A stretch of DNA of 64,000 nucleotides from Janthinobacterium sp. (GTDB lineage Bacteria; Pseudomonadota; Gammaproteobacteria; Burkholderiales; Burkholderiaceae_D). The notes beneath the pieces are model-generated. The model was not told the origin of the DNA. It saw nothing but the letters and a program-made list of their open reading frames with translations, and ran no database searches. Positions 4,072 to 51,207 of this stretch are shown here, one piece after another. The stretch spans positions 1 to 64,000 of the forward strand of contig PKWL01000068.1 in NCBI GenBank assembly GCA_003133225.1, given 5' to 3'. The position numbers and the translations under genes are program-made. Position 1 is the first letter of the stretch, and every line of letters starts with the position of its first letter.

Positions 4072-4125
4072 GATGGATCGTCGCGTCGCATCCACGAAAA
4101 TTTGCTGCGTGGCGGAATCGGCAAG

Positions 4126-26934: not shown

Positions 26935-27040
26935 AAATGCGATCCCGATGGGAAAAGGTGGCGCCGGAGGAAAATTTTACGCGCCTTGCCAGGCCCAAGC
27001 GGCAACGCGGCGCCCCCGTAGCGGGGCACGAGGCACTAAA

Positions 27041-27787
27041 GTGAGAAGGGAACTTCGGCCCCTCGGTGCGGACTCGCCAGCAACAGGCGATGTGACTGTG
27101 TTCCTGTTTGACTGCGATAACACGCTGCTCGACAACGATCGGGTGCAAGAGGATCTGCAAGCCCACCTGGAACGCGAATTTGGCGCCGCCAACCGGGCTC
27201 GCTACTGGCAAATTTTCGAGGCTTTGCGCCGCCAACTGGGCTACGCGGACTACTTGGGCGCACTGCAGCGCTACCGCCTCGGTGCCGGCAACGATCCCCG
27301 CTTGCTGCAAATGTCCGCATTTCTAGTCGACTACCCGTTCGCCGAGCGCCTGTACCCGGACGCCCTAAACGTCCTGGCCCGGGTTGGCGCGTGGGGCCCC
27401 ACGGTGATCCTGTCGGACGGCGATGTCGTCTTTCAGCCGCGAAAAATTGAACGTTCGGGGCTATGGCGCGCCGTCGAAGGTCGCGTTTTAATTTACATTC
27501 ACAAGGAGAAGATGCTAGCTGACGTCGAACAACGCTACCCGGCCCGCCATTACGTCATGGTCGATGACAAGCTGCGCATCCTGGCGGCGATGAAGACCAT
27601 TCTCAAAGAGAAACTGACGACCGTCTTTCCCCGTCAGGGGCACTACGCCCACGACCCGCACACCATCGCCACTTATCGGCCCGCCGATCTGACGCTCGAT
27701 TGCATTGGCGACTTGATCCATGTCGACTTGCCGTTCCTGCTGCATGCGGCCCGCGCCAGTCACCTTAACCATAGGTCGCCATCATGA
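27041..27787 (+). CDS. HAD-superfamily hydrolase
   Basis: The 248-residue protein has the HAD core. Motif I is FLFDCDNTLLDND with the nucleophile Asp, motif II is ILSDGDVVFQ, a Lys lies in IHKEKMLADVE, and motif IV is YVMVDDKLRI with the Asp-Asp pair. A helical cap lies between motifs I and II (HLEREFGAANRARYWQIFEAL). I chose GTG 27041 because GAGG lies 7 bases before it; GTG 27092 is the alternative. Its stop overlaps the transaldolase ATG (ATGA), so it is part of the gnd-tal-pgi transcript. A sugar-phosphate phosphatase role is inferred from this position only. Confidence 0.75.
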   Translation: MRRELRPLGADSPATGDVTVFLFDCDNTLLDNDRVQEDLQAHLEREFGAANRARYWQIFEALRRQLGYADYLGALQRYRLGAGNDPRLLQMSAFLVDYPFAERLYPDALNVLARVGAWGPTVILSDGDVVFQPRKIERSGLWRAVEGRVLIYIHKEKMLADVEQRYPARHYVMVDDKLRILAAMKTILKEKLTTVFPRQGHYAHDPHTIATYRPADLTLDCIGDLIHVDLPFLLHAARASHLNHRSPS

Positions 27788-28890
27788 ATGCGAATTTACG
27801 TCTGCACGAACTGGGCCAAAGCCTGTGGCTCGACAACATTACGCGCGAGCTGCTGGACTCTGGCACCTTGCGCCGGTACCTTCAAGATTTCGCCGTTACC
27901 GGGCTCACCTCGAATCCGACTATTTTTGACCAAGCTTTGCGCAACACCACGGTGTACGACGCGGCCATTCGCGATAAGGCGGCCCAAGGCAAGGCGGGCG
28001 AGGCCCTGTTTTTCGAGCTGGCCCTGGAAGACTTGCGCCGCGCCGCCGACCTGTTCCGTCCCATTTACGCTAGCAGCGCCGGCATGGATGGCTGGGTCTC
28101 GCTCGAAGTATCGCCGCTGCTAGCGCACGACGCAGCCGGCACGATTCGGGCCGCGGCCCATTTGCATGCACTGGCGCAAAGAGCCAATTTATTCATTAAG
28201 ATCCCCGGCACGCAAGCGGGCCTGGGCGCCATTGAGGAATCGATTTTCGCGGGGGTTCCTGTTAACGTGACGCTGCTATTTTCTCATGAGCAATATCTGG
28301 CAGCGGCGGCGGCGTACATGCGCGGCATTGAACGGCGCCTTGGCGCCGGTCTGGATCCAAGAGTCGGTTCGGTGGCCTCGATTTTCATTTCCCGCTGGGA
28401 TGTGGCCGTCAAGGACCGAGTTCCGGCCGCCCTATCTAATCGGCTCGGGATTGCCGTCGCGCGCCGCGCCTACCGCGCCTACCGCGAATTATTGGACTCC
28501 CCAGCATGGCGCAAATTGGCCGCGGCCGGGGCCATGCAACAACGTCTGCTCTGGGCCAGCACCGGTACCAAAGACCCGCGCGCAGCCGATACGCTGTACG
28601 TGGAGGCGCTCGCCGCACCGCAGACCATCAATACCATGCCGGAAAAAACGCTACAAGCGTTCGCCGATCATGGTGTCGTGAGCACCAGCATGGCCCCCGA
28701 TGGGGGCGATGCGGAACCCATACTGTCCCACTTTGCCCAAGCTGGCATCGACGCTGCGGCCCTAGCGAGCCAGTTGCAGCGTGAGGGCGCCGAATCATTT
28801 AGCAAGTCCTGGAATGATTTGCTGGCCGTCATTGCCAGCAAGAGCATCGCGCTCGCACCGGCTGGCGCCAAAGTGCAGGCACCGTCATGA
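27784..28890 (+). CDS. tal: Transaldolase
   Basis: The 368-residue enzyme transfers a dihydroxyacetone unit between sedoheptulose 7-phosphate and glyceraldehyde 3-phosphate, giving erythrose 4-phosphate and fructose 6-phosphate. The length and sequence match the TalB-distant actinobacterial/cyanobacterial-type group, which often sits beside or is fused to Pgi. Signature segments are [31 protein letters not shown] and the Schiff-base Lys139 in [24 protein letters not shown] and [10 protein letters not shown] are also typical. It overlaps the HAD gene (ATGA) and the pgi gene (ATGA), so the three are translated as a coupled set. Confidence 0.92.
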
Positions 28891-30542
28891 ACGGCGCCCA
28901 CTCGCATGGCCCGGGGCCCGTTGCCGAGCGGCCCGCGTGGCAAGCTTTGGTGGCCCATCACAAATTGATGGGCCACGGCCATTTGCGCGATTTTTTTGCC
29001 GCCGACCCGCAGCGGGGCGAGCGCCTCTGTATTCAAGGCGCTGGACTTTACTTCGATTACTCGAAAAATCGGGTAACTGACGAGACCATCGAGTTGCTGC
29101 TGCAGTTGGCAAAGGAGAGCGGCTTGGCCGCGCGCATCGAGGGCATGTTCGGCGGCCAGAAGATCAACGCCAGCGAGCAACGCGCGGTGCTCCACGTCGC
29201 CTTGCGCGCGCCGGCCGGCGCGCGCATCGAAGTTGAGGGCGTCAACGTAGTGCCCGAAGTGCATGCTGTCCTCGAGCATATGGCCCGTTTTTCCGAAAGC
29301 GTGCGCGATAAAAGCTGGTTAGGCTACACCGGTCGGCCGATTCGCAACGTGGTCAATATCGGCATCGGCGGCTCCGATCTCGGCCCCGTCATGGCCTATG
29401 AAGCCTTGCGCCATTACAGCTTGCGCGACATGACCTTCCGTTTTATCTCGAATGTCGACGGCACGGACTTTGTGGAAGCCACGCGCGATCTCGATCCCGA
29501 AGAGACCTTGTTCATCATCTGTTCGAAGACGTTTATGACGCTCGAAACGCTCACGAATGCGCACACGGCGCGCGCCTGGAGCCTAGCTAAGCTCAAGGAC
29601 GAAAGGGCGGTGCAGCGCCATTTCGTCGCCGTCTCAACGAATGCCGAGGGCGTGGCGAAATTTGGTATCGACACCGCCAACATGTTCATTTTCTGGGACT
29701 GGGTCGGCGGCCGCTATTCGATGGATTCGGCGATCGGCTTGGCCACCATGCTCGCCATCGGGGCTGACAACTTTCGCGCCATGCTGTCCGGTTTTCATGC
29801 CATGGACCGGCATTTTCGCAGTGCGCCGTTGGCGCAAAATCTGCCGGTGATGATGGCTTTGCTAGCCGTGTGGAATAATAATTTCCTCGATGCGCAAAGC
29901 GTGGCGGTGCTGCCGTATGAACACTACCTGAAGCGCTTGCCCGCCTATTTGCAGCAATTGACCATGGAAAGCAACGGCAAGCACGTCACGCAGCAGGGCC
30001 AGCCCGTCGCCGTCGCAACGGGCGCTCTCTACTGGGGTGAGCCAGGTACCAATGGCCAGCATTCCTTCTACCAGCTCATCCACCAAGGAACGCGCCTCGT
30101 GGCCTGCGATTTCATCGGCTTCTGCCAGCCTTTGAACGCCGTGGGCCGCCATCACGACTTGTTGCTAGCGAACTTGTTTGGCCAGACCGAGGCGCTCGCT
30201 TTTGGCAAGACGCGAGAGCAGCTCGAGGCCGAAAAAACACCATCTTGGCTGGTGCCTCATCGCATTTGCGAGGGCAACCGCCCCAGCAATACTATCCTCG
30301 CCGACCGTTTGACCCCGGAAACGCTGGGTCAATTGGTCGCGCTCTACGAACACAGTGTCTTCACGCAAGGGGTGATCTGGTCGATCGACTCGTTCGACCA
30401 GTGGGGCGTCGAACTGGGCAAGGAACTGGCGCAACGCATCATCGCCGAAATTGAAAGCAGGGACGAGCCGGCGCTCGGGCACGACAGTTCGACGAACGCG
30501 TTGATCCGGCGTTATCGGCGCCTACGCCCGCCCCCACCATGA
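28887..30542 (+). CDS. pgi: Glucose-6-phosphate isomerase
   Basis: The 551-residue enzyme interconverts glucose 6-phosphate and fructose 6-phosphate. It carries [56 protein letters not shown] and [12 protein letters not shown]. The second PGI signature is near the C-terminus ([16 protein letters not shown]). Length is normal for the bacterial 550-residue class. The ATG overlaps the transaldolase stop. In this setting it links pentose-phosphate products back to G6P, or G6P from Pgm to F6P for the phosphoketolase. A 141-base gap with a small GC hairpin separates it from the leader ORF of pgm. Confidence 0.94.
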
Positions 30543-30683
30543 CGCTCTTGGAGCGACGGGCAGCACGGACATTTGCCCGAGGCGGGCCGTGTGTGGCATG
30601 ATGGGTATTCGAATGCTCGGGCGTTGCGCCCTCAAGGCAAGAATAAAAAAGGCGCTCCCGGCGCGGCAAAAAAGGAGTGACGC

Positions 30684-30785
30684 ATGCAAGCAGAAAAAAA
30701 GACAGCGCCCGCAGTAGTTGCCATGGCGGCGCCATGGGCGCCTTCGCGCGCCAGTCTGGCGCCGTCTCGGAGCCGGATCGGATGA
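30684..30785 (+). CDS. Small leader ORF coupled to pgm
   Basis: A 33-codon reading frame ([18 protein letters not shown] and on) begins 6 bases after AAAAAAGGAG, the best ribosome binding site in the area. It stops at TGA 30783-30785, which overlaps the pgm ATG 30782 in an ATGA. It may only deliver ribosomes to pgm by translational coupling. No family is recognised. Confidence 0.4.
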
Positions 30786-32440
30786 ACATCAGCCCCCTGG
30801 CCGGCCAACCGGCGCCGCCGGCGATGCTAGTTAATGTGCCTCGACTCGTCACCGCCTATTACACGCAGGTACCGGATTTGGCGGTAGCGGGCCAGCAGGT
30901 GGCCTTTGGCACGTCAGGCCATCGTGGCAGCGCATTCGAGACCAGCTTTAACGAATGGCATGTGCTCGCCATTAGCCAAGCCATTTGCGAGTACCGTGCC
31001 CGGCAAGGCATCACTGGCCCCTTGTTTCTAGGCATCGACACTCATGCGCTGTCGATACCCGCTTGCGCTAGCGCACTCGAAGTGCTGGCAGGAAATGGCG
31101 TGGACGTCATGTTGGCGCAGCGCGACGAATACACGCCGACGCCGGCCATTTCGCTTGCCATACTGACCTACAACCGGGGCCGCAGCACGGGCTTGGCCGA
31201 TGGCATCGTCATTACGCCTTCCCATAATCCGCCCGAGGACGGTGGCTTCAAGTACAACCCGCCCAATGGCGGACCGGCCGATGCTGGCGTGACCGGCTGG
31301 ATCGAAGCGCGCGCCAACACGTTTTTACAAGGTGGCCTCAAGGGCGTCAATAAAATACCTTACGAAAAGGCACTGCGCGCCGCCACGACCCACCGCTACG
31401 ACTATCTGGGCGCTTACGTAAACGAACTCGACCAGATGATCGACATGGCGGCCATTCGCGGCACAAAAATTCATCTCGGCGTCGATCCGCTGGGCGGCGC
31501 CGGCGTTCATTACTGGGCGCGGATCGGCGAACAGTACGATCTGAACCTGACGCTGATCAACGCCGAAGTCGATCCGACATTCCGCTTCATGTCGCTCGAT
31601 TGGGACGGCCGCATTCGCATGGACCCCTCTTCCCCATATGCGATGCAGCGCCTGATTGGACGGCAGAAAGACTACGACATCGCCGTTGCCTGTGACACCG
31701 ACCACGACCGCCACGGGATCGTCACCCCCGATGCCGGATTGTTGCCACCGAATCATTATCTGGCCGTCGCCATCGACTATCTGTTCCAGCACCGCCCAGC
31801 TTGGTCTCAGATGGTGGGCGTGGGAAAAACCGTCGTCAGCAGTCAAATCATCGATCGCGTCTGCGCCAGGTTGGGGCGCAAGATGGTGGAAGTGCCGGTG
31901 GGCTTCAAGTGGTTTGCCGATGGTCTGTACCATGGCACGCTCGGGTTTTGCGGCGAAGAGAGTGCCGGCGCGTCCTTCTTACGCCGCGACGGCACGGTTT
32001 GGACCACGGACAAGGACGGCCTCGCGCCGGCCTTGCTGGCAGCGGAGATCAAGGCGCGCACGGGCCGCGATCCGGGCGAAATCTATCGCGCCCTTGCACA
32101 CGAGTTTGGTGATCCGGTCGCGGACCGGGTCGAGGCGGGCGCCACTCCGGCGCAGAAAAAAATGCTGGCGAACCTGTCGCCACAGCAAGTGCAATCGACC
32201 GAACTGGCCGGCGAAAAAATCCGTAGCGTCCTCACCAAGGCGCCCGGCAACGGTGCCGCGATCGGCGGCTTGAAGGTGATCACGGATGGCGGCTGGTTTG
32301 CGGCCCGCCCGTCCGGCACGGAAGACATCTATAAAATTTATGCGGAGAGTTTTCACGGGGAAGATCATTTGCGCCGCATCGTGCACGAAGCGCAAGCGAT
32401 CGTCGATCTTGCGCTTCATGCCGGTGCAAGCGGCGCCTAG
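30782..32440 (+). CDS. pgm: Phosphoglucomutase, alpha-D-glucose type
   Basis: The 552-residue enzyme interconverts glucose 1-phosphate and glucose 6-phosphate. It follows the E. coli Pgm pattern from the start ([20 protein letters not shown]). The catalytic phospho-Ser is Ser147 in [15 protein letters not shown], the Mg2+-binding loop is [15 protein letters not shown], sugar recognition is [14 protein letters not shown], and the phosphate-binding end is [17 protein letters not shown] 30782 aligns with the usual family start; the longer frame from 30677 would overlap a ribosome binding site. A leader ORF ends across its start. In this island Pgm would carry Glc-1-P from the GH94 protein into G6P, or run the other way for glucan synthesis. 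Confidence 0.94.
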
Positions 32441-32448: not shown

Positions 32449-34512
32449 CTATACCTTAAGCAAGGCCAGCGCGCGCCGGCAAACGTTCTCCGGTGTAAAA
32501 CCGAATTCACGCATGACCACCTCGCCGGCGGCCGAGGCGCCGAAATGATCGACACTGAGCACATCGCCGCGCTCGCCTACATAGCGGTGCCAGCCTTGCG
32601 CTACCCCGGCCTCGACCGCGAGCTTGGGTATCGCCGGCGGCAAGACTTCGTCCAAGTAGGACTGCGGCTGGTCGTCGAACAATTCCCAGCTCGGCATGGA
32701 GACGACGCGCGCCTGAATATGTTGCGCCAGCAGTTGTTCGCGCGCGGCCACGACCAGCGCGACTTCCGAGCCGCTGGCAATCAAGACCAGGTCCGGCTTG
32801 CCGTTGGCCGCTTCCACCAGAATGTAGGCGCCGCGGCGCAGCCCGGCGGCCGCGCCAAATGTCGTGCGCTCGAAGGTCGGCACGCTTTGCCGCGTCAGCA
32901 CCAGTGCCACTGGCCGCTCCCCCGTTTCGATGGCAAAGCGCCAGGCCATGGCTGTTTCATTGGCATCGGCGGGGCGAATGACGACCAGGCGCGGCACAGC
33001 ACGCAAGCTGGCCAGCTGCTCTACCGGTTGGTGGGTGGAGCCATCTTCGCCTAACGCAATGCTGTCATGCGTAAAGACATACACGACATGCAGGCCCATC
33101 AATGCAGCAAGGCGGATCGACGGACGCATGTAATCGGAAAAAACCAAGAATGTCGCGCCAAACGGCAGCGCACCGCCGTGAGCGGCCAAGCCGTTGATGA
33201 TCGCCCCCATGGCATGCTCGCGCACGCCAAAGTGCAAGTTGCGCCCGGCATAACTCCAGCCGCCTGCGGCCGAGCCTTGGCGCTCGCCGGCGCCGACGCC
33301 GGGCGCCTGGAAGTCGCCCAATCCCAGAAGCGCGGTAAAGGTGGACGGGTCCAGATCCGCCGAGCCACCGATCAACGCCGGTAGGTGGGCCGCGATGGCG
33401 TTCATGACTTTTCCCGCCGCCGCGCGCGTGGCCATGCCTTTGGCATCCGCCGCAAACTGGGGCATGGCGGCATCCCAGGCAGCGGGCAGGGCGCCTTGGA
33501 TCAGTTGCTGCAATTCGAGTGCGAGTGCGGGAAAATTTTTTTCATACGCAGAAAATCTGTCGCGCCATTGCAATTCGCTCTGTTGGCCGCGCTCGCCCGC
33601 TTCCAGAAAATGCCTGCGTGCCGCTTCCGGGATGAAAAACAGCGGCTGCTCGGGCCAGCCGAGGTTGCGCTTGGTCAGGCGCAGCTCTTCCATGCCGAGC
33701 GGCGATCCATGCGCCTCGAACGTGTCTTGTTTATTGGGCGAACCATAACCGAGATGGGTGCGCACCAAAATGAGCGAGGGGCGTTTGCTTTCGCTACGGG
33801 CGGCCGCCAGCGCCCGCTCGAGCGCCTCCAGGTCGTTGCCGTCGGCCAGCAATTGGGTGTGCCAGCCATACGCATCGAAGCGGCGCGCCCGGTCTTCGCT
33901 TAGGGTCATATCGGTGGCGGCCGACAGCGTCATGTGGTTGTCGTCGTACAAGTAGATCAGTTTGCCCAGTTGCAAATGGCCGGCCAGCGACGCCGCCTCC
34001 GAGGCGACGCCTTCCATCAAGTCGCCGTCGCTCACGATGGCGTAGGTGAAATGATCGATGATGTGGTAGCCGTCGCGGTTGTAGCGCGCGGCCAGGTTCG
34101 CCTCCGCGATCGCCATCCCGACGCCGTTTCCGAAACCTTGGCCGAGTGGTCCCGTCGTCACCTCGACGCCCGCTGTCAAGCCCCGTTCCGGGTGCCCCGG
34201 CGTGCGGCTGCCCCATTGGCGAAAATGCTGCAGTTGCTCGAGCGGCAGGTCGTAGCCGGTCAGGTGGAGCAGGCTGTACAGTAGCGCAGAGCCGTGGCCG
34301 GCCGACAGCACGAAGCGATCGCGGTCGAACCAGTGCGGGTTGGCAGGATGGTGCTTGAGCACGCGGGTCCACAGTGCGTAGGCCATCGGCGCGGCGCCCA
34401 GCGGCAAGCCGGGATGGCCACTCTTGGCTTGCTGGACGCTATCGGCGGATAAAAAGCGCAGCGTGTTGACGCACAACTCGTCGAGTGCGGCGCGGGAAAG
34501 CGGCTCATTCAT
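32449..34512 (-). CDS. tkt: Transketolase
   Basis: The 687-residue thiamine diphosphate enzyme moves two-carbon units between pentose, heptulose and triose phosphates. Motifs include [20 protein letters not shown] and [13 protein letters not shown]. The ThDP/Mg2+ motif reads [20 protein letters not shown], ending in [21 protein letters not shown] contains the catalytic Glu, and [15 protein letters not shown] the phosphate-binding His. ATG 34512 has AGGAG about 9 bases upstream. It is the only gene of the carbon island on the minus strand. It converges on pgm with 8 bases between stops and diverges from the GH94 gene. Confidence 0.94.
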
Positions 34513-34954
34513 GGGTGGCGCTCCTATCATTGAACTGGCACAAAAGTGGCGGCCCGCGCCGCCTGTGACGCCGCGGGCATCGGGCCGCTGTCAAGCCTAG
34601 GGTCTCACAGGCAAAGCGTGCGCGAAATGCGTAATTCGATCTGTTCGGTAACGCACGAAAAAAGACGCTTCGCCGGCGCTCCGCGCCAGCTGCCCGCAGC
34701 GGGCGCAGCATTCACGCCGGCTCGCGCCAAGCTTGGGTCGGCCATCGCCGCAAGCACCGCCACACTAGTGCGCGCCAAGAGTGCCTGACGGCATCTGACA
34801 ATACGTGTGTCAACGCACAGACGGGGGCAATGGATCGTATTATTTTTATGATTCCGGTTGGTTCCGCGCTAAATCCTGGCGCTCGCAGGGTCTCGTCGGG
34901 CGCTTGAAACAAAGACGCGCATTTCACGTTCGTTTTTTGAGTGGGCATCCGTTC
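34513..34954. promoter_or_regulatory. Divergent promoter region between tkt and the GH94 gene
   Basis: These 442 bases carry no gene I can support and must hold the start signals for tkt (leftward) and the GH94 gene (rightward). The GH94 reading frame stays open upstream to 34805, but the 50 extra residues do not look like any GH94 start. Confidence 0.4.
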
Positions 34955-37900
34955 ATGAGTCATACTCGGCAGTCACGCGTTATCAACAATGCGTTCGCCC
35001 CCCTCCCACAGGTCCAGTTGCTCTCGAATGGCCGCTACCACGTCATGCTCACGAGCGCGGGCGGCGGTTACAGCCATTGGAAGAACCTCGCCGTCACCCG
35101 CTGGCGCGAGGATGGCGTCTGTGACAACTGGGGCAGCTTTTGCTACCTGCGCGACGCGGCCAGCGCACAAGTGTGGTCGACGGCGCTGCAGCCGACGCTA
35201 CGGCGCCCGGACTCTTATGAAGCGGTTTTTTCAGCGGGACACGCGCTGTTTCGACGCCGCGACGGGGATTACGAAACGCAAACTGACGTCGTCGTCGCCG
35301 GCGACGATGACGTCGAGGTGCGGCGCACGCGCCTGGTCAACTGTTCTGGCGTGCCCAGGATCATCGATTTGACCAGCTACGCGGAAATCGTGCTGGCCCC
35401 GCCCGCCATGGATTTGGCCCATTTGGCGTTTAGCAAACTGTTTGTCGAAACGGAGATCGTCGGGCAGTACCAGGCGATCTTATGCCGGCGCCGGGCCCGG
35501 GCCCCGGACGAGGCGACGCCGTGGATGTTTCACCTGTTGCGCGCGCATCAAGCGCTAACGGGAGCCGTCTCCTACGAGACAGACCGCATGCAGTTCATTG
35601 GCCGCGCTCGCACCACGGCCGACCCGCAAGCAGTGGAAGGCGAGGCGCCCTTGTCGGGCCGCGCCGGCCCCGTGCTCGATCCGGTGGCAGCGATCCGTTG
35701 TCGTATCGCGCTATCAGCTGGTGCCACGGCAAGCGTCGATCTGGTTAGCGGCGTTTGCGAAACCCGCTCAGCGTGCATGGCAATGCTTGAGAAATACCGG
35801 GCGCGCGACGGCGCCGAGCGTGCCCTCGCCGGCGCGGCGGCGTATCACCAGACGCTGTTGCGCCATCTGCATGCGAGCGCGGCCGAGGCGCGCCTGTATG
35901 CAAGGCTTGCCGCTTCTGTCATCTACGCCAACGCTGCGCTGCGCGCCGACGCTAGCATTCTGGGCAAGAATCGACAAGGCCAGTCCGGCTTATGGCGCTT
36001 TGCCATTTCGGGCGATGTGCCAATCGTGCTGCTGCAAGTGGCAGACGCGGCAAAAAGCGTTTTGGCGCGCCAAATCATCCAGGCCCATTCGTATTGGGGC
36101 CAGCTAGGACTGGCCGCGGACCTGGTCATTGTCAGCGCCCGCCAGGTGGGCGCGAGCGCCTTGCAAGAAGCGCAAGGACGCGCCGGCGCCGCCGATAGCG
36201 TTCAAGCCGGTAAAGTCTTCGTGCTCAGCGCCAGTCAAATTTCGGAAGAGGACGATTATCTTTTGCAATCCGTGGCCCGCATCGTGCTCCATGACGGCCA
36301 CGGCAATTTGGCGCAACAGATCAAGCGGTGCGGGCCAGTGGCGGGCGCGCCGCCGCCAGCGCCGCGCCCGCCGGTGTTGGCGGGCGCGGCCGAACTGGCG
36401 CCGCGCCCTCTGCAGTTTAGCAACGGATTGGGCGGATTTGCTGCCGATGGGCGCGAGTATGTCGTGACCCTCGCGCCGGGCCAGACGACGCCTTTGCCGT
36501 GGGTGAATATCCTGGCCAATCCCACCTTCGGAACCTTGATTTCCGAAAACGGCAGTGCCACCACCTGGAGCGAAAATGCGCATGAATTTCGCCTCACGCC
36601 ATGGTCGAACGATCCGGTCGGCGACGCCGGCGGCGAAGCGTATTACGTGCGCGACGAGGAAAGCGGCCGCTTCTGGTCGGCCACGGGCCTGCCGGCAGGC
36701 GGTGCCACCGCCTATGTCGCGCGGCATGGCTTCGGCTACAGCGTGTTCGAGCATAGCGAGGACGGCATCGACTCCGAACTGAGCGTGTTTGTGGCGATCG
36801 ATGCACCGCTCAAGTTCGCCCTGCTAACGCTGCGCAATCGCTCGGGGCGCCCGCGCCGCCTGTCGTCTACCGGCTACCTCGAGTGGGTCTTGGGCGATGA
36901 ACGCGCGCACACGCACATGCACGTCAATACGTGGCGCGATGGCGACAGCGGCGCCCTTTTTGCGCACAATCCGTACAACACCGATTTTGGCGGGCGGACG
37001 GCGTTCTTCGATGCCGACGGCGCGCGCTGTGTGTGCGCCGATCGCCGCCAGTTCCTGGGGCGCAACGGCACGCTGCGCCAGCCGGCGGCGATGGCGCAGC
37101 CGGAGCTGTCCGGCCTGGTGGGAGCAGCGCTCGATCCGTGCGCGGCAATCCGGGTGGTCATCGACTTAGCTGATGGGCAGGCGCACGAAGTCGTATTTCG
37201 TCTGGGCGCCGCAGCGAGCGCCGACGCTGCCCGCGACCTGTTGCGGCGAACGGGCACGAGCGCGGGCGCCCATGACGCTCTGGCAAAAGTAAAGCAGTAT
37301 TGGCAACACACCTTGGGCGCCGTGCAAGTAAAAACGCCGGACCGGGCGTTTGACATCCTCACTAACGGCTGGCTCGTCTACCAGGTTCTCGCATGCCGCG
37401 TCTGGGCGCGCAACGCATTTTATCAATCAAGCGGCGCCTTCGGCTTTCGCGATCAATTGCAAGACGTCATGGCCTTGGTCCATGCGGTGCCGGGCGTGGT
37501 GCGCGCGCACCTGTTGCTGTGTGCGTCGCGCCAGTTTGCCGAGGGCGATGTCCAACACTGGTGGCATCCGCCCATGGGGCGCGGGGTGCGCACCCATTGT
37601 TCGGACGACTACCTGTGGCTAGCCTTTGCCAGCTGCCGCTACGTGGTGGCCACGGGCGATGCCGGGGTGCTCGGGGAACCCGTTCATTTTCTCACCGGCC
37701 ATGCGCCGAAGGAAGGCGCCGAGTCATGCTACGAGCTGCCCGGGGAAGCGGGCGAAGTGGCCACCTTGTATGAACATTGCGTGCGCGCCATCAAGCGCGG
37801 CCTGCGTTTCGGCGGGCACGGCTTGCCGCTGATGGGCTCGGGCGATTGGAACGATGGCATGAACCTGGTCGGTGCCGGCGGCAAGGGTGAAAGCGTGTGG

Positions 37901-38806
37901 CTGGGCTTTTTCCTATACGCGGTTCTGACCCAGTTTAGCGAACTCGCGCAGCGCCATGGCGACGCCGCCTTCGCCGCCGACTGCGTGAGCCAAGCGGCGC
38001 GGCTGCGCGATGCGATCGAACACAGCAGTTGGGATGGCGAGTGGTATCGCCGCGCCTGGTTTGACGATGGCACCCCGCTGGGCTCGGCCCAGAACACGGA
38101 ATGCCGCATCGATTCGATCGCGCAGAGCTGGTCAGTGCTCTCTGCAGGGGGCAACGCGCATCGCGTTCGCTGCGCCATGGACGCGCTCGAGCGACACTTG
38201 GTTGTCGCCGATAGCGCCTTGATCTTGTTGCTGGCGCCCCCGTTCGACCGGGCCACACCCAACCCTGGCTACATCAAAGGCTATTTGCGCGGCGTACGCG
38301 AGAACGGCGGCCAGTATACCCATGCTGCCGTGTGGGCAGGAATGGCGTTCGCGGCCTTGGGCGACGGCGAACGGGCGTGGAAACTGTGTTCGATGATCAA
38401 TCCCATCAATCACGGCAATTCGGCCGCATCGATTGCGCTCTATCAGACTGAGCCTTACGTCCTCGCCTCGGACGTCTACGCGCTGGCGCCCCACAGCGGG
38501 CGCGGCGGCTGGACCTGGTATACGGGCTCGGCTGGCTGGATGTACCGCTTCGTCCTGGAGTCCTTGTTGGGCCTGCGCCTCACAGGCGAGCAATTGCATT
38601 TTTCTCCGTGCGTGCCGGCGGCCTGGAGCGCATTCGAAATAGCCTATCGATATCGGGAAACGCCGTACCACATTCGCGTGCGGCAAATGGGTGGCGCGCT
38701 CACACTGAGCTTGGATGGCGCGGCGCAGCCAGAGGCCGCAATTTTTTTGATCAATGATCAACAGCAACATTTAGTGGAGCTCCATATTCCGGCGCCACCG
38801 CGTTAG
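34955..38806 (+). CDS. GH94 glycoside phosphorylase matching the C-terminal part of cyclic beta-1,2-glucan synthase
   Basis: The 1283-residue protein begins at the point where the GH94 half of NdvB/Cgs would begin ([20 protein letters not shown]). There is no GT84 transferase and no membrane segment ahead of it. Domains in order are a first beta-sandwich (about 15-330), a helical linker (about 340-480), a second beta-sandwich (about 485-720; [19 protein letters not shown]), and the (alpha/alpha)6 catalytic barrel (about 800-1200). The barrel has [35 protein letters not shown] and [13 protein letters not shown]. By family precedent Asp967 in the last motif is the general acid. Standalone relatives include 1,2-beta-oligoglucan phosphorylase, which yields Glc-1-P, fitting the adjacent pgm. 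A different beta-glucan as substrate cannot be excluded. Confidence 0.85.
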
Positions 38807-38987
38807 GGAAGGATGCGCACAATATGCAATTGGCCATGCTCGGCTTTCGGCCCGCGACAAAGCGCCAGACGCGAGCTGCGCGGCAGGCGCGCGCGGCTTT
38901 GAGCGCCGGACCGGCCCGGACGGGGCGCGAGGGATGGCCGCGTCAGCCTCTTTTTTTCGCCGCCCATGTTTTCCGGAGCCCCATGAA

Positions 38988-40412
38988 ATGAATGAAACCA
39001 CAAGCAAGGCGCCGTCGGATGCACTGGTGCTGTTTGGCGTGACGGGCGACTTGGTCTATAAAAAGATTTTCCCGGCCCTGCATGCGCTGGTGAAGCGGGG
39101 CGTGCTTGACATCCCCATCGTCGGTGTTGCCTCTTCGATTTGGAGCTTGGCGCAACTTCGTCAACGGGCCAAAGACAGCATTAAAACCCATTCGCGGATC
39201 AAGGACGAGCTCGCCCTAGAGCATCTGCTGTCGCTGCTGCACTACGTCCACGGCAACTACAACGATCCGGCCACCTTCCAAAGCTTGAAGGCGACGCTAG
39301 GCAACGCCAAACATCCAGCCCATTATCTCGCCATTCCGCCCGCGCTCTTTGCGACCGTCATCCAAAGTCTAGGCGCGGCGCGCCTGGCCGACAAGGCGCG
39401 CGTCATCGTCGAAAAACCGTTCGGACGCGACCTCGCTTCCGCCCGCAAACTCAACCGAATTGCGCGCGCCGTGTTTCCGGAAGACGCGATCTTTCGCATC
39501 GATCATTTCCTGGCCAAGGAAGCGATCATGAACATCCTTTATTTCCGCTTCGCCAATACGTTCCTCGAGCCCATCTGGAACCGCAACTACGTGGCCAGCG
39601 TTCAAATCACTCTCGCCGAGGAATTCGGCGTCGAGGGTCGGGGCGCGTTCTACGAAACGGCCGGCTGCCTGCGCGACGTCATCGAAAACCATTTGTTTCA
39701 GATCGTGGCGCTGCTTGCCATGGAACCTCCAAGCTACCGCGGCTTTGGCGCCGTCCACGGCGAAACGGCGGATGTCTTTCGTGCCATGCGCCCGCTCAAA
39801 CCGGACGACGTCGTGCGCGGCCAGTACGCCGGCTACCGTAAGGAAGCGGGCGTGGCGAGCGATTCCGACGTTGAGACATTTTGCGCCGTGCGCCTCTTTA
39901 TCGACTCCTGGCGTTGGGGCGGGGTGCCATGGTATCTGCGCTCGGGCAAATGCCTGCCTGAGACGGCCGCCGAAGTAGTCGTCTCGCTCAAGCCGCCGCC
40001 GCAGCACCTGTTCGCCGACGCCGGGTCCGCGGCCAAGGCGTGCAACTACCTTCGTTTCCGCCTGTCTCCCAACTCTGCTGTCGCGCTCGCTGCGCGCGTG
40101 AAGCGGGGCGGCAAGGAGTTCGTCGGTGATCAGCATGAACTGTATCTGGTCGAGCAACGACCGGACGAGGAAGCGCCCTACGAGCGCCTGTTGGAAGACG
40201 CCATGGCCGGCAATGGCGCGCTCTTCATCCGCGAGGACGCGGTGGAGGCAGCTTGGGCCGCGGTCGATCCAATTTTGACCAATCATCACGGGGCGAGCCT
40301 CTACCAGCGCGGCAGCTGGGGGCCAAAGGAAGCGGCCGCCCTGATGGCTGGTGTCGGCCGCTGGTACAACCCAGAGCCGACCCCGATGGAAGTCGATGCC
40401 GGTTCGAACTAG
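38988..40412 (+). CDS. zwf: Glucose-6-phosphate 1-dehydrogenase
   Basis: The 474-residue enzyme oxidises G6P to 6-phosphogluconolactone with NAD(P)+. The coenzyme site is [30 protein letters not shown] follows, and the active-site signature reads [13 protein letters not shown], where most relatives have RIDHYLGKE. Thus two positions in the signature differ but the His and Lys remain. [15 protein letters not shown] and the C-terminal [14 protein letters not shown] are also typical. ATG 38988 has GGAG 9 bases upstream. It is followed after 15 bases by the phosphoketolase gene. No 6-phosphogluconolactonase is in the window; hydrolysis could be spontaneous or done by an enzyme encoded elsewhere. 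Confidence 0.93.
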
Positions 40413-40427: not shown

Positions 40428-42800
40428 ATGAGGCAAGCAAAGACGCTGTCACCGCCACTGCTGCTCAAGATGGATGCGTACTGGCGCGCCGCCAATTATC
40501 TGTCGACGGGCCAGATTTATCTGTGCGACAATCCCTTGCTCAAGCGCCCGCTAAGGCTCGCCGATGTCAAGCACATGTTGCTCGGGCACTGGGGTACGAC
40601 GCCTGGACAGAACTTCATTTACGTCCACTTGAACCGGATCATCAAGCAATACGACCTTGACATGATTTACGTCTGCGGTCCCGGACACGGCGCACCCGCC
40701 GTCGTGGGCAACACCTATCTCGAAGGCAGCTATAGCGAAATCTATCCGGATATCAGCCGCGATGAGGCAGGGCTAAAGAAGCTCTTTCTCCAGTTTTCCT
40801 TTCCTGGCGGGATTCCCAGTCACGCCTCGCCGGAGTGCCCGGGCTCGATCCATGAGGGCGGCGAACTGGGCTATTCGCTCAGCCATGCGTTCGGAGCCGT
40901 GTTTGACAATCCCGGCCTCGTCGTGGCCTGCGTCATCGGCGACGGCGAGGCCGAAACGGGCCCGCTCGCCACGGCCTGGCATTCCAATAAGTTGCTCGAT
41001 CCCGCCACGGATGGCGCCGTGCTGCCCATCTTGCATCTGAACGGCTTCAAGATCTCCAACCCGACGCTGCTAGCGCGCATCAGCCGCCAGGAACTCGAGC
41101 AGTTACTGCGCGGCTACGGCTGGACGCCCCTTTTCGTGGAAGGCCACGAAGCGGCCCCGATGCACGAGGCCATGGCGGCGGCACTCGACCAGGCGGTCTT
41201 GCAAATCCAACAAATTCAGCACAATGCCCGCGCCAAGGGCAGCGCTGCGCGGCCATTCTGGCCCATGATCGTCCTCATTTCGCCCAAGGGCTGGAGCGGG
41301 CCGAAATGGGTCGATGGGCGCCAGATCGAAGGCACCTTCCGCTCGCACCAAGTCCCCATTGCCGTATCGTCCACCACAGCGCCGGCCCACCTCGCCTTGT
41401 TGGAAGACTGGCTGCGCAGCTACCGGCCGCAGGAATTATTCGATGCGCAAGGCCGCCTGCAGGGGGAACTGGCCGATCTGGCGCCCAAGGGCAAGCGCCG
41501 CATGGGCGCCAATCCGCACGCCAACGGTGGCCTGCTGCTGCGCGAACTGCGCCTGCCCGATTTCCGCGCCTACGCGGCCGACGTGGCAGCGCCAGGGGCG
41601 CCCGGCATCGGCGATACGCATGTGCTGGGGCCCTTCTTGCGCGATGTCATCAAGCTAAATGACGCGCAGCGCAATTTTCGCGTATTTGGTCCCGACGAGA
41701 CTTTGTCAAATGGGATGGAGGCCTTGTTTGAAGCGACAGCGCGCCAGTGGGATGGCGCGCTCGTGCCGGGTGACGAATTTCTCGCCCCCAGCGGGCGCGT
41801 CATGGAAATGCTAAGCGAGCACCAATGCGAGGGCTGGCTGGAAGGCTATCTGCTGACCGGGCGCCACGGCTTGTTCAATTGTTACGAAGCCTTCATCCAC
41901 ATCATCGATTCCATGTTCAACCAGCACGCTAAATGGCTCAAGGTTTCCTCCCGGCTGCCGTGGCGGCGCAAGATCGCCTCCCTCAACCTTCTCTTAGCCT
42001 CCCATGTCTGGCGTCAGGATCACAACGGTTTCTCGCACCAGGATCCGGGCTTCATCGACCATGTCGTCAACAAGAAGGCCGAGGTGGTGCGGGTGTACCT
42101 GCCGCCCGACGCCAATTGCCTGCTCTCGGTGATCGACCATTGCCTGCGCAGCCGCCATTACATCAATGTCGTCATCGCCGGCAAGCATCCGGCGCCGCAA
42201 TGGCTGACCATGGATGCCGCCGTCTTGCACTGCGCCAAGGGCATCGGCATCTGGCAGTGGGCCAGCAACGACCAAGGCGGGCCCGACCTTGTCATGGCTT
42301 GTTGCGGCGATGTGCCCACGCTAGAGTCGCTAGCCGCCGTCTCCATTTTGCGCGCCCATCTGCCCGACCTTAAAATCCGCCTGATTAATGTAGTTGACCT
42401 GATGCGGCTGCAGCCGCAAATTGAACATCCGCACGGCTTGGACGATGTCGAGTTCGGTGAACTCTTTACTCTGGACAAACCCATCATCTTCGCCTTTCAT
42501 GGCTACCCCTGGTTGATCCACCGCCTCACCTACCGCCGCGCCAACCATCACCATATTCACGTACGCGGCTACAAGGAAGAGGGCACGGTCACGACGCCGT
42601 TCGACATGACCGTGCTAAACGACCTAGACCGTTTCCATCTCGTGATGGATGCCATCGACCGCTTGCCGCAAGCCGGCGCCAAGGGTGCCTATCTGAAACA
42701 GCAGCTAAAGGACAAACTTATCGCACATAAACAATACATCGGCCAGCATGGCCAGGATATGCCGGAAATTCGCAACTGGAAATGGAGCCACAACTCATGA
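40428..42800 (+). CDS. xfp: Xylulose-5-phosphate/fructose-6-phosphate phosphoketolase
   Basis: The 790-residue ThDP enzyme cleaves Xu5P to glyceraldehyde 3-phosphate and acetyl phosphate, and in many members also F6P to erythrose 4-phosphate and acetyl phosphate. Signatures are [40 protein letters not shown] and the ThDP motif [20 protein letters not shown]. The C-terminal part has [20 protein letters not shown]. Length is normal. It overlaps the aldolase gene by ATGA. The acetyl phosphate made here can be used directly by the acetate kinase at 51200 without a phosphotransacetylase, and none is found in the window. Confidence 0.95.
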
Positions 42801-43831
42801 ATACGCAAAAGTTGATCGAGACGGCCGCGGCGCTGTTCGCTAACGACAAAGGCTTGCTGGCGATAGATGAAAGTATTCCCACCTGCAACAAACGGTTTGC
42901 CCAGTTTGGTATCGCCCAAACCGAGGAGGCGCGCCGCGACTACCGCGAATTGATTGTGACGACGCCCGGACTAGGTGAATCCATTAGCGGCGCCATCCTG
43001 TCTGACGAGACGATCCATCAATATCTGACCAATGGCACGCCCTTCGTGAAGGCGATGCAAGATGCGGGAATCATTTCCGGCATCAAGGTTGACGGCGGTG
43101 CGAAAGACATGGCCGGCCATACGGCAGAGAAAATCACGGAAGGCTTAGACGGATTGCGCGAACGCCTGGCAGCCTATGGTCAAATAGGCGCCCGTTTCGC
43201 CAAGTGGCGTGCCGTGATCGCCATCGGCGATGGCATTCCCAGCCGCAGTTGCATCGAGGCCAACGCGCACGCGCTGGCGCGCTACGCCGCCCTGTGCCAG
43301 GAAGCCGGCTTGGTCCCTGTCGTGGAGCCGGAGGTGTTGATGGATGGCGCCCATACCTTGGCGCGCTGCTTCGAAGTCACCGAGGATGTCTTGCGCACGG
43401 TTTTCGCCCAGCTTTACCGGCACCAAGTGCTGTTGGAGGGCATGGTTTTAAAGCCCAACATGGTCCTGCCCGGATTGACCTGCCCCCAGCAAGAGATGGA
43501 GGATGTCGTCGCCGACGCCACCGTCAAGTGCCTGCTGCGCGCCGTCCCCGGCGCCGTCCCCGGTATTGCGTTTTTGTCGGGCGGGCAAGCCCCGGAACTG
43601 GCTTCGGCCCGTTTGAATGCCATGAACGCGAGATTCAAGTCGCGCGTGCCGTGGGCCTTGGCATTTTCCTTCGCCCGCGCCATCCAGCAACCAGCCTTGC
43701 AGATTTGGCGCGGCGAGCCGGCCAACGTGGCGGCCGCGCAAAAGGCTCTGTATCACCGCGCCCGCTGCAACTTTGCTGCGCGCCGTGGCGAATATGTATT
43801 GACCTCCGACGCGCCCGCGGTCCCGCTCTAA
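42797..43831 (+). CDS. Class I fructose-bisphosphate aldolase
   Basis: The 344-residue Schiff-base aldolase is of the eukaryote-like class I type. It has [65 protein letters not shown] and the Schiff-base Lys219 in [35 protein letters not shown] follows. ATG 42797 lies inside the phosphoketolase stop (ATGA), which is better supported than ATG 42782. It would split F1,6BP (or sedoheptulose bisphosphate) or run in the synthetic direction. No phosphofructokinase or fructose bisphosphatase is in the window, so its direction here is open. Confidence 0.92.
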
Positions 43832-43993: not shown

Positions 43994-45915
<1,922 letters not shown>

Positions 45916-45923
<8 letters not shown>

Positions 45924-46251
45924 CGAATCAGAAAAAAACATGCAAAAAGAGCCGGACTTCGCGCGCCAGGTCGGCCTGAAGGCGGAGCGCAAGCTCTTGG
46001 CGCGGCGCAACCCCACGCCGGGCGTCTGGTTCGGCCTTGGCATGATGGGGCTGATCGGCTGGTCGGTCGCGGTGCCAACCCTGCTTGGCACCGCGCTCGG
46101 CCTGTGGCTCGACCAGCATTATGCAAGCCGCCATTCATGGACGCTGGCCCTGTTGGTGGCAGGGCTCGCGCTCGGTTGTTTTAACGCCTGGCATTGGGTT
46201 GTCAAGGAAGACAACGCCATGCATGAGAGAGGGCAGAAAAAGGATGAATGA
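45916..46251 (+). CDS. atpQ: N-ATPase accessory protein AtpQ (AtpI-like)
   Basis: The 111-residue protein has an N-terminal charged segment with several Arg/Lys (FARQVGLKAERKLLARRN). Two membrane helices follow (about 37-62, GVWFGLGMMGLIGWSVAVP, and about 75-95, SWTLALLVAGLALGCFNAW). This is the pattern of the AtpI-like second accessory gene of N-ATPase operons, thought to help assembly of the c-ring. The position after atpC and before atpR fixes the assignment more firmly than the sequence alone. It overlaps both neighbours by 8 bases. Confidence 0.85.
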
Positions 46252-46558
46252 AACGCTCATTTTAGCGTTGGCGGGCATTGCCGGAAGCGCGCTTGGCGCC
46301 TTTTTCTTTGTTGGTCTATGGTGGACGGTGCGTCAAGCCATGGCGTCGAGACAGCCGGCGCTGTGGTGCTTTTGCGCCTTAGTGCTGCGCATGAGCGTGG
46401 CCTTGGCCGGATTTTATGTCGTTGCGGGCGGCGCTTGGCAACGCCTTGTGGCATGTCTTTGCGGATTTCTCATCGCGCGCAGCGTCGTGCTAAGGCTGAC
46501 GCGGCCTGATCGCGAAAATCGAACCCAAGCGGTTGTGGAGGCCAGCCGTGCGCCTTAG
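46244..46558 (+). CDS. atpR: N-ATPase accessory membrane protein AtpR
   Basis: The 104-residue hydrophobic protein has three predicted membrane helices (MNETLILALAGIAGSALGAFF; LVLRMSVALAGFYVVAGG; LVACLCGFLIARSVVLRL). AtpR is found only in N-ATPase operons. It is proposed to interact with the c subunit through conserved Arg residues inside the membrane, and Arg49 in CALVLRMSVAL and Arg80 in LIARSVVLR are candidates here. ATG 46244 lies in the atpQ stop region, and the frame upstream is noise. Its stop overlaps atpB by 11 bases. Confidence 0.85.
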   Translation: MNETLILALAGIAGSALGAFFFVGLWWTVRQAMASRQPALWCFCALVLRMSVALAGFYVVAGGAWQRLVACLCGFLIARSVVLRLTRPDRENRTQAVVEASRAP

Positions 46559-47243
46559 CCCCGACGAGATGATCTTCTGGCAATACAGTGTTTTCAAGCT
46601 GAATGGCACCATTGTATTTACGTGGGCCTTGATGTTGGTGCTGACGGTCGGCGCCAAACTCGTCTCCCGCAACCTGGCAACGGGCTGGGAGCGCTCGCGC
46701 TGGCAACACGTCTTGGAGATCGTCGTTAGCGCCATCGAGAACCAAATCGAGGAGGTCGGACTACACGACCCGCGCACCTACCTCGGGTTTTTGGGCACCT
46801 TATTTCTATTCGTTGCCACGGCCAGTCTGGGCACGATCATTCCCGGCTACGAGCCGCCCACAGGCTCACTCTCAACTACGGCGGCACTCGCTTTGTGCGT
46901 GTTTGTTGCCGTGCCCTTGTTTGGCATCAAGGACCAAGGCGTGAAGGGCTATCTCCTGTCCTACATGGAGCCGACCATCATCATGCTGCCGTTTAACGTC
47001 ATCAGTGAAATGTCGCGCACGCTGGCACTGGCAATCCGCCTGTTTGGCAATATGATGAGTGGCGCCATGATCATTGGCATCTTGCTGACCATCACGCCCT
47101 TCATTTTTCCGGTCGCCATGACCGTGCTCGGCCTACTGACGGGCATGGTGCAAGCTTACATCTTCTTCATTTTGGCTGCCGTCTACATCGCCGCCGCCAC
47201 CCGCGTACAAGAGCCCAGACTGGCGCTCTTGTCCAAGACTTAA
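46548..47243 (+). CDS. atpB: N-ATPase subunit a
   Basis: The 231-residue subunit a forms the ion half-channels. The essential arginine is Arg164 in TLALAIRLFGNMMSG. QPEY-type ends of ordinary subunit a are missing, and the C-terminus reads FFILAAVYIAAATRVQEP. The start is GTG 46548 because GGAGG lies 6 bases before it. This gives VRLSPDEMIFWQYSVFKLN, typical of the N-type clade. Five or so helices are predicted. It would work with the c-ring at 47267 and subunit b at 47546. Confidence 0.92.
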   Translation: MRLSPDEMIFWQYSVFKLNGTIVFTWALMLVLTVGAKLVSRNLATGWERSRWQHVLEIVVSAIENQIEEVGLHDPRTYLGFLGTLFLFVATASLGTIIPGYEPPTGSLSTTAALALCVFVAVPLFGIKDQGVKGYLLSYMEPTIIMLPFNVISEMSRTLALAIRLFGNMMSGAMIIGILLTITPFIFPVAMTVLGLLTGMVQAYIFFILAAVYIAAATRVQEPRLALLSKT

Positions 47244-47266
47244 AACACCGCCACCAAGGACCTATC

Positions 47267-47542
47267 ATGGATAGCATGACTATTATCGCGGTCGCATCAA
47301 TTGTCATGGCCGGCATCACGACCGGTTTTGGCACGATGGGACCGGCCTTAGCCGAGGGGCGGGCCGTTGCAACGGCGCTCAATGCGCTGGCGCAGCAGCC
47401 CGACGCGGCCGCCACCATCACCCGCACCTTGTTTGTCGGCTTAGCCATGATCGAGTCGATGGCGATCTACTGTTTCGTGGTCTCGATGATCCTCATTTTC
47501 GCCAACCCGTTCTGGAACCATGTCATCGCGGCCGGAAAGTAG
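47267..47542 (+). CDS. atpE: N-ATPase subunit c (rotor ring)
   Basis: The 91-residue hairpin has helix 1 (about 5-38), a polar loop (QQPDAA) and helix 2 (about 50-80). Helix 1 carries Glu30 (MGPALAEGRAV) where Na+-binding c subunits have Gln or Glu. Helix 2 carries Glu63-Ser64-Met65-Ala66-Ile67-Tyr68 (LAMIESMAIYCFVV). Glu30, Glu63, Ser64 and Tyr68 correspond to the Na+ ligand set known from Ilyobacter and proposed for N-ATPases. Met65 takes the place of the usual Thr. Coupling to Na+ is thus plausible but not certain. The helix-1 GxGxG-like packing (GITTGFGTMGP) is reduced. Confidence 0.93.
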   Translation: MDSMTIIAVASIVMAGITTGFGTMGPALAEGRAVATALNALAQQPDAAATITRTLFVGLAMIESMAIYCFVVSMILIFANPFWNHVIAAGK

Positions 47543-47545
47543 AAG

Positions 47546-50879: not shown

Positions 50880-50887
50880 ACCTTGCC

Positions 50888-50991: not shown

Positions 50992-51207
50992 ATGAATGAA
51001 GCAACTGCGTCACTCCAAACCGGCATCGACGGCGAAGGTGCGCTCACAGGGGGGCCGAACGCCGCGGCGGCCTCGCCCATGTATCGGGCGCACCTGCTGA
51101 CGATCGTCGCTTCCCATCGCCAACGCCCCTGGGCGTCTAGCGCCGGCCCGTGGGCGCAGGTCGATCCTGGCAAGCCGCGCACAGCGGCGCTGCCGATTCA
51201 TGCATAG
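50992..51207 (+). CDS. Small ORF coupled to ackA
   Basis: This 71-residue frame begins MNEATASLQTGIDGEGALTG and has GGGGGGTAGGCAG directly before it, while the ackA ATG has no visible ribosome binding site. It ends 8 bases inside ackA, so its translation could feed ribosomes to ackA. No family is recognised. The middle part (MYRAHLLTIVASHRQRPW) is basic. It may be only a leader, or chance. It fills most of the 320-base gap after atpG. Confidence 0.35.
   Translation: MNEATASLQTGIDGEGALTGGPNAAAASPMYRAHLLTIVASHRQRPWASSAGPWAQVDPGKPRTAALPIHA

Follow-up and report, generated by a model that had tools for sequence, protein, structure and literature searches.

A free-standing GH94 protein of the cyclic beta-1,2-glucan synthase type, probably a beta-1,2-glucan phosphorylase, among central-carbon genes of a Janthinobacterium

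The 64,000-nucleotide stretch of Janthinobacterium sp. DNA analyzed here (contig PKWL01000068.1, positions 1 to 64,000; hereafter the window) contains, at 34955-38806, the gene of a free-standing (FS) GH94 protein of the cyclic beta-1,2-glucan synthase (CGS) type. Judged by its sequence, FS descends from CGS as a detached half. FS is probably a cytosolic beta-1,2-glucan phosphorylase which, together with a GH144-type endo-beta-1,2-glucanase encoded in the window, feeds glucose 1-phosphate (Glc-1-P) via phosphoglucomutase (Pgm) into the pentose-phosphate and phosphoketolase route. The GH144-type glucanase would cut beta-1,2-glucan, either imported or made by the cell's own CGS, into oligosaccharides with free non-reducing ends. 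FS would phosphorolyze glucose off those ends with inorganic phosphate, releasing alpha-Glc-1-P with no ATP spent; Pgm would convert Glc-1-P to glucose 6-phosphate (Glc-6-P); and Zwf, Gnd, Tal and Tkt, phosphoketolase and acetate kinase would convert Glc-6-P to NAD(P)H, acetyl phosphate and ATP. Phosphorolysis spares the ATP that a kinase would use. The activity, substrate, cell location and flux direction of FS are predictions from sequence.

The open reading frame of FS started with ATG, encoded 1283 amino acids (aa) and had zero internal stops; the frame remained open on its 5' side as far as a GTG at 34805 (1333 aa), so that the start of FS is uncertain. Pfam matched the GH94 supersandwich in two stretches (PF06165, 2e-160), the GH94 catalytic domain (PF17167, residues 782-1206, 8e-119) and a GH65 C-terminal domain (3e-5), and no other family at E 0.001. 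The top PDB match (phmmer) was Cgs of A. tumefaciens (8rf9/8rf0, 993 bits), with query residues 19-1250 aligned to 8rf9 1540-2792, that is, Cgs/NdvB residues 1540-2792; a preliminary description of this DNA had recognized the GH94 half of NdvB/Cgs from the first residues of the protein, and the alignment agreed. Cgs has an extra Rossmann-like subdomain between its GH94 parts (residues 1847-2012; PMC10901819), and the match ran through this Rossmann-fold-like (RFL) subdomain at approximately query 307-463. Neither GT84, the GH189 cyclase domain nor an N-terminal hydrophobic segment was found in the 1283-aa protein by Pfam, PDB search and hydropathy, as the preliminary description had maintained for GT84 and membrane segments. 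The GT84 and cyclase half of Cgs was not reported as matching FS in phmmer against PDB, and FS had no PF10091 match in Pfam and no match to the GH189 structure 8wy1 in PDB. A plain Kyte-Doolittle scan showed no apparent N-terminal hydrophobic stretch or signal peptide, the peak 19-residue hydropathy (1.74) being internal to the protein.

Scores to other GH94 enzymes in PDB were lower: 273 bits to chitobiose phosphorylase, the second-best match, 180-273 bits across chitobiose, cellobiose and cellobionic-acid phosphorylases, about 52 bits to cellodextrin phosphorylases and 27.7 bits to the 1,2-beta-oligoglucan phosphorylase (SOGP) LpSOGP (5h3z). FS was rejected as an SOGP by this last score and by the separate position of SOGP-type rows in the tree, and its grouping with cellobiose, chitobiose or cellobionic-acid phosphorylases was likewise rejected by PDB scores and tree.

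Residues were compared across 74 aligned GH94 sequences. In LpSOGP, the residues in contact with Glc-1-P are R630, D631, W758, D760 and E917; Y922 and S1005 touch its phosphate, and R916 and Y1004 are among those at subsites +1/+2 (PMC5309861). The FS counterparts of the LpSOGP contacts were R832, D833, W965, D967, R1115, E1116, Y1121, H1123, Y1189 and T1190, and almost every free-standing or CGS row kept these residues. D2528, the catalytic acid in Cgs (PMC10901819), corresponds to FS D967, the final step being made by alignment offset (2509 in 8rf9 numbering and 2528 in 8rf0, whose numbering runs 19 above that of 8rf9). The catalytic Asp (D967) and the phosphate-binding Tyr, His and Thr/Ser of GH94 (Y1121, H1123, T1190; roles from PMC5309861 and PMC10901819) were thus present, and the loss of phosphate-binding residues considered in the preliminary description was not found. 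Where subsite +2 of disaccharide phosphorylases is occupied by bulky Arg or Gln (PMC5309861), FS had the small residues G827 and A828, like SOGP; its Y1189 aligned with the LpSOGP Tyr.

Trees were quick searches with Shimodaira-Hasegawa-like approximate likelihood ratio test (SH-aLRT) supports only, long branches being flagged. They were rooted on SOGP-type rows (n = 3, one checked: 613 bits to 5h3z) and cellobionic-acid-type rows (n = 3, one checked: 1173 bits to 4zle); other enzyme types were compared by PDB score alone. Nine free-standing rows from eight genomes (set FS1, with the window copy) formed a single clade (SH-aLRT 100), sister to 29 CGS C-terminal halves, a Syntrophaceae copy among them, and nested amid more divergent CGS. 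FS did not group with cellobionic-acid- or SOGP-type rows in this tree, which was built without laminaribiose-type enzymes; a disaccharide-phosphorylase grouping had been named by the preliminary description as contrary to its view. A second, more distant free-standing set (FS2; G297, G1169, G1142 and G1154) formed a separate four-row clade (SH-aLRT 100) within a different CGS group. A single free-standing family of FS1 plus FS2 was rejected (approximately unbiased test, p-AU 3e-91); constraining the 49 CGS rows together was also rejected (p-AU 2e-47), a result that is not specific to FS1. The Syntrophaceae copy lay, unconstrained, beside FS1 or inside CGS with support 83, and could be joined to FS1 (p-AU 0.75), for which reason it was not counted as a separate origin. 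As FS1 and FS2 each have CGS of full architecture to either side in the tree, at least two detachments are the simplest account, and the phosphorylase half probably left CGS at least twice.

The window genome (G000; 5.74 Mb, 158 contigs, 2.69% contamination) had three GH94 homologues: FS, a second free-standing copy at C48:29275-33132 (64% identical to FS, open frame of 1315 aa) and a copy at C132:18692-22549 (56% identical) inside a 2902-aa frame. This frame scored 2008 bits against Cgs and has PF10091; by these matches it is a complete CGS, and the search for a GT84 gene elsewhere in the genome that the preliminary description had proposed is answered by its presence on this other contig. 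With the complete CGS on C132 and the second free-standing copy on C48, FS is not the half of an only synthase, and its interpretation as the severed half of the sole synthase was ruled out. Tetranucleotide use of parts of the window correlated with that of C132 at 0.53-0.79, and that of C48 at 0.41. On C48 (also loci L004 and L208) a large part of the region occurred a second time (GH94, gnd, zwf, tal, pgi, tkt, xfp and GH144; 51-83% identical per gene), and this copy may be foreign DNA, a duplication or contamination. Each of the FS contigs of this genome carried its own GH144 gene.

Clear FS genes were found in at least 3 of 294 family genomes (G000, G798 and G990), two candidates per genome being scored and matches counted as a lower bound. 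G798 is Glaciimonas sp. KJC.1, whose genus belongs to the family of the window organism, and the FS gene is on the same contig as locus L069. Further copies were in G423, G1166, G1163, G125, Variovorax sp. WDL1 (L070) and a Syntrophaceae metagenome-assembled genome (L141). Before counting, G169 (contig edge) was excluded from the FS lists and L169 was excluded as a duplicate (same contig as L069); G597 and a group without RFL subdomain were held separate as other lineages. FS1 copies were spread over several genera, and their frames were uninterrupted save one cut by a contig end.

The genes next to FS encode enzymes of Glc-1-P and Glc-6-P metabolism, as the preliminary description had stated; pgi, pgm, tkt, zwf and more were identified (Table 1). 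Conservation of this neighborhood was examined by tblastn of window genes against each locus, with gnd, zwf, tal, pgi, pgm, tkt, xfp and fba as markers. A central-carbon gene was within 10 kb of FS in 9/9 FS1/Syntrophaceae loci, in 3/4 FS2 loci and in the window (13/14). With flanks trimmed to 5.4 kb beyond the gene, a central-carbon neighbor was still present in 12/13 FS loci, the window apart, against 5/20 control loci of full-length CGS with equal flanks, all five of genus g18. The difference between 13/14 FS and 5/20 CGS loci gave Fisher p = 1e-4, related loci not being independent. Among CGS-type loci of named genomes, 1/77 had a central-carbon neighbor, 41 of the 77 holding at least 3 kb on both sides.

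The clearest arrangement of the module is that of the Syntrophaceae locus L141, where a GH144 frame (6-1334) overlaps the FS frame (1325-5245; FS start not certain); behind FS the run continues in the same orientation with HAD, ackA, PRC-barrel, xfp, rpiB, fba and pgi. Its ingredients GH144, GH94, HAD, ackA, xfp, fba and pgi were also present in the window, over 42 kb that also include pgm, zwf, gnd, tal, tkt, ATPase genes and PPK2. The HAD gene of the window recurred in four other FS1 loci (L053, L069, L070 and L170), in addition to the HAD protein of the Syntrophaceae run.

The predicted partner matched XcSGL in PDB (8xul, 6.8e-112), and then putative glucoamylases and CpSGL (5gzh, 1e-34); the GH189 structure 8wy1 was not among its seven PDB matches. 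XcSGL (XCC2207) belongs to GH144 and acts specifically on beta-1,2-glucan (PMC12102758), and the likeness of the window protein to GH144 glucanases covered the whole barrel. The motif Glu, E197, was present in 17/17 aligned homologues, and the motif Asp, D129, in each except one poorly aligned Variovorax copy; from these motifs E197 is the putative acid and D129 the putative base. The 8xul chain has Gln at the position of E197 and is probably an inactivated mutant. A Kyte-Doolittle scan showed no apparent signal peptide in the window protein, and by eye most other GH144 N-termini had no clear one, the exception being G1166:C86 (L217), with a hydrophobic stretch.

Searching PF10091 over 20 genomes, seven of them non-carriers, located free-standing frames of 439-492 aa on contigs bearing FS genes. 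The distance between GH144 and FS was 22 kb in the window, 25 kb on C48, 8 kb in G798, 6 kb in G990 and 8 kb in G423; Variovorax sp. WDL1 had GH144-type genes at 10 and 18 kb, the two frames overlapped in L141, and the FS2 loci G297, G1169 and G1154 had divergent GH144-type neighbors. A GH144-type gene was thus within 26 kb in 10/14 FS loci, and the remaining four (G125, G1166, G1163 and G1142) were on contigs of 7.8-10.8 kb; in G1166 and G1163 a GH144-type gene was on another contig. Within 5.4 kb, a GH144-type gene was present in 4/13 FS loci, 0/20 control CGS loci and 1/77 named CGS loci. Free-standing PF10091 genes also occurred in 2/7 non-carriers (G016 and G041), and 46/294 family genomes, the three FS carriers included, had a GH144 match at E <= 1e-60. 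The glucanase is thus associated with genes for beta-1,2-glucan at large, and with FS more often. Abe et al. reportedly found in 2017 that GH144 enzymes also open cyclic glucan.

The preference of the preliminary description for phosphorolysis, with Glc-1-P passed to Pgm, gains support from the central-carbon synteny and the co-located GH144-type gene. Phosphate added to purified Cgs results in shorter glucan, an effect credited to its GH94 domain (PMC10901819). Several observations weigh against this reading. Phosphorolysis is reversible, so that the gene alone leaves the direction unsettled. FS2 locus G297 had zero central-carbon genes nearby, and in genus g18 gnd and pgm were near full-length CGS. 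In at least 13 of the 179 family genomes with a CGS-type match (11 of g18, G852 and G879), GH144 was 9-18 kb from the GH94 part of full-length CGS; with GH144 and central-carbon genes near some full-length CGS, context separates FS from CGS incompletely. GH144 was present without FS in 43/291 other family genomes, and G125 and G1142 had no free-standing PF10091 gene in their assemblies. In the window itself, 22 kb with efflux and regulator genes separate GH144 from FS, and the assembly is fragmented. FS is sporadic within the genus: among 24 other species a CGS-type match was found in 23 and an intact FS-length gene in 0, G001 and G014 having only pieces at contig ends. Lastly, the FS of Variovorax sp. 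WDL1 has Glu at the catalytic Asp position 967, an exception among the free-standing copies.

The combination of CGS and GH144 in g18, G852 and G879 may be this module in an unsplit state; in g18 loci L178, L180, L181, L184 and L185 the full-length CGS had GH144 9-18 kb off and gnd and pgm nearby. The L070 cluster of Variovorax sp. WDL1 also contains a GH15 gene.

A broader possibility, put forward tentatively and with some doubt, is that beta-1,2-glucan is an intracellular energy reserve replacing glycogen: CGS would make it in the cytosol, GH144 open it and FS mobilize it, the phosphoketolase, acetate-kinase, alternate-ATPase and polyphosphate region would spend it, and the at least two detachments from CGS would have occurred under selection for reserve use. 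Neither FS nor the window GH144 has an apparent signal peptide, and GH144 also lies near full-length CGS, both of which favor a reserve. Also in its favor, GlgA and GlgP had no match over cut-offs in the window genome, and a ChvA-type exporter matched above the NCBI cut-off in 0/20 genomes, carriers and non-carriers alike, although the exporter may be divergent. Both were rejected as discriminators: glycogen genes were also without matches over cut-offs in four same-genus genomes lacking FS, and the ChvA result was the same irrespective of FS. Against a reserve, GlgA was present in FS1 carriers G125 and G1166 and in FS2 carriers G1169 and G1142, and GlgP in G1169 and G1154.

It is unlikely that FS scavenges external beta-1,2-glucan or sophoro-oligosaccharides, a use proposed for Listeria SOGP, whose gene adjoins a transporter and a GH3 gene (PMC3960220). 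The pairing of endo-glucanase and phosphorylase would fit, and L. innocua has SOGP without CGS and with an adjoining ABC transporter (PMC3960220); but no sugar importer was recognized among the FS-region genes scanned, a subset of the open reading frames, neither FS nor the window GH144 protein has an apparent signal peptide, and carriers produce their own glucan through CGS.

Mainly reversed operation, in which FS would extend beta-1,2-oligosaccharides with plentiful cytosolic Glc-1-P into linear beta-1,2-glucan that is degraded later, seems quite improbable. Glycoside phosphorylases are generally reversible and SOGP has been used to make linear beta-1,2-glucan (PMC11842490), pgm and pgi would supply Glc-1-P, and the window genome gave no glycogen synthase or phosphorylase match over cut-offs. 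The co-located genes, however, are those of an endo-glucanase and of catabolic pentose-phosphate and phosphoketolase enzymes, and no UDP-glucose or primer gene was recognized among the identified cluster genes.

It is similarly improbable that FS trims in trans the glucan that the cell's own full-length CGS is producing, serving chain-length control without a fuel role. Of 13 carrier genomes, 12 (all except G1163) had a CGS, either full-length or as a piece cut by a contig end, FS and CGS were about 6 kb apart in G297, and FS keeps the RFL subdomain, which in Cgs lines the glucan path and touches the N-terminal domain (PMC10901819). Nevertheless, a GH94 half is already built into CGS, and in most carriers where both were placed FS and CGS were on separate contigs, FS being located with sugar catabolism and the glucanase.

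That FS is a GH94 phosphorylase of another linkage specificity (cellobiose, laminaribiose or cellobionic acid) is very improbable. GH94 includes many specificities and the beta-1,2 assignment comes from sequence, but FS stood apart from cellobionic-acid-type rows, its scores to cellobiose, chitobiose and cellodextrin enzymes were low compared with CGS, and at subsite +2 its Y1189 and G827/A828 correspond in the alignment to the Tyr and the small residues found in LpSOGP. A non-functional remnant of a split synthase, to which descent from CGS and the WDL1 Asp-to-Glu change could point, is scarcely credible, given that frames stay open and catalytic residues are retained in several genera, that the copies form one clade in a kept neighborhood, and that the genome has a complete CGS on another contig. 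The preliminary description had offered phosphorylase or split-synthase remnant as alternatives; its derivation from a synthase stands, yet FS, a detached CGS half, is conserved and apparently functional, and the two are not exclusive.

As a predicted beta-1,2-glucan phosphorylase, FS shares with Agrobacterium Cgs/NdvB (8RF9/8RF0) the GH94 parts with RFL insertion, the catalytic Asp and the nearest sequence, and differs from it in lacking GT84, the GH189 cyclase and the N-terminal membrane part and in being a separate gene among central-carbon genes. With LiSOGP and LpSOGP it shares the expected reaction, two beta-sandwich domains plus barrel, and the Tyr and small residues at subsite +2; it differs in its low score to LpSOGP, its place outside SOGP-type rows and its RFL subdomain, and its neighbors differ from those described for the SOGP gene of Listeria (PMC3960220). 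The window GH144, alike to XcSGL (8XUL) over the whole barrel, has no apparent signal peptide, whereas a signal peptide is listed for XcSGL (PMC12102758, Table 3). The proposed route would resemble that from glycogen phosphorylase to Pgm, a glucose polymer being phosphorolyzed to Glc-1-P, but with GH94 instead of GT35 and another linkage, and in a genome with no GlgP or GlgA over cut-offs.

Beta-1,2-glucans are mainly described as periplasmic, symbiotic or virulence polymers. The reaction, GH94 family and GH144 are already known; no description of a free-standing CGS-type GH94 phosphorylase, storage beta-1,2-glucan or such a cluster was found in the portions examined of the open-access literature. 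If the proposed role is true, beta-1,2-glucans serve as metabolic fuel in Burkholderiales and beyond through a conserved cytosolic glucanase-phosphorylase pair by central-carbon genes; a very large synthase had one of its domains recycled, probably more than once, into a catabolic enzyme; and a CGS-type phosphorylase could be obtained on its own in soluble form, both for study and for beta-1,2-glucan production.

Table 1. Coordinates of FS, its domains and other identified genes in the window.
Feature	Coordinates	Strand	Basis or remark
Free-standing CGS-type GH94 protein (FS), predicted beta-1,2-glucan phosphorylase	34955..38806	+	Open reading frame, Pfam, PDB match, tree, residues
GH94 beta-supersandwich, best stretch, residues 16-266	35000..35752	+	PF06165; Pfam gives a second stretch too
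RFL subdomain, approximately residues 307-463	35873..36343	+	Alignment to Cgs 1847-2012; borders approximate
GH94 catalytic domain, residues 782-1206	37298..38572	+	PF17167; catalytic acid D967 at 37853-37855
GH144-type endo-beta-1,2-glucanase, 447 aa, predicted partner	11245..12588	+	8xul 6.8e-112; PF10091; no apparent signal peptide
FAD-containing pyridine-nucleotide-disulphide oxidoreductase	12387..14093	+	Follows GH144 in the window and in three FS2 loci
gnd, decarboxylating 6-phosphogluconate dehydrogenase	25828..26934	+	Above cut-offs of TIGR00872 (NAD type) and NF007161 (named NADP-dependent)
HAD-family hydrolase	26822..27787	+	Found in several FS loci
tal, transaldolase	27784..28890	+	
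pgi, glucose-6-phosphate isomerase	28887..30542	+	
pgm, phosphoglucomutase, Glc-1-P to Glc-6-P	30677..32440	+	TIGR01132
tkt, transketolase	32449..34530	-	Divergent from FS
zwf, glucose-6-phosphate dehydrogenase	38934..40412	+	
xfp, phosphoketolase	40428..42800	+	
fba, class I fructose-bisphosphate aldolase	42782..43831	+	
F1F0 ATPase genes	44003..50879	+	Beta alternate type TIGR03305; subunit a, alpha, gamma by Pfam; intervening frames without identification
ackA, acetate kinase	51200..52453	+	
PPK2-family ADP-polyphosphate phosphotransferase	52426..53334	+	NF042973

On the 3' side of phosphoketolase, the F1F0 ATPase genes (beta of the alternate type), acetate kinase and PPK2 constituted an energy-conservation region (44003-53334). 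The GH144 gene was surrounded (1393-24321) by the genes of two RND efflux systems, including outer-membrane and membrane-fusion components, of a Na+/H+ exchanger and of a sensor kinase with weak resemblance to heavy-metal sensors. Domain matches of the oxidoreductase began at residues 80-91, so that its true start is probably downstream.

Other arrangements of GH94 were also observed. Loci L061, L062, L063 and L064 (G757, G742, G483 and G600) had CGS-related free-standing GH94 frames of 1177-1258 aa with no Rossmann-like match reported, two of them with F-type ATPase genes upstream of the GH94 frame. Proteins of about 1830 aa at L065:5525-11020 (G555), L204:2758-8250 (G642) and L203 (G653) had a GH94 part at the C-terminus only, 36-38% identical to the window FS; residues 1-825 of the G555 protein were without any Pfam match.

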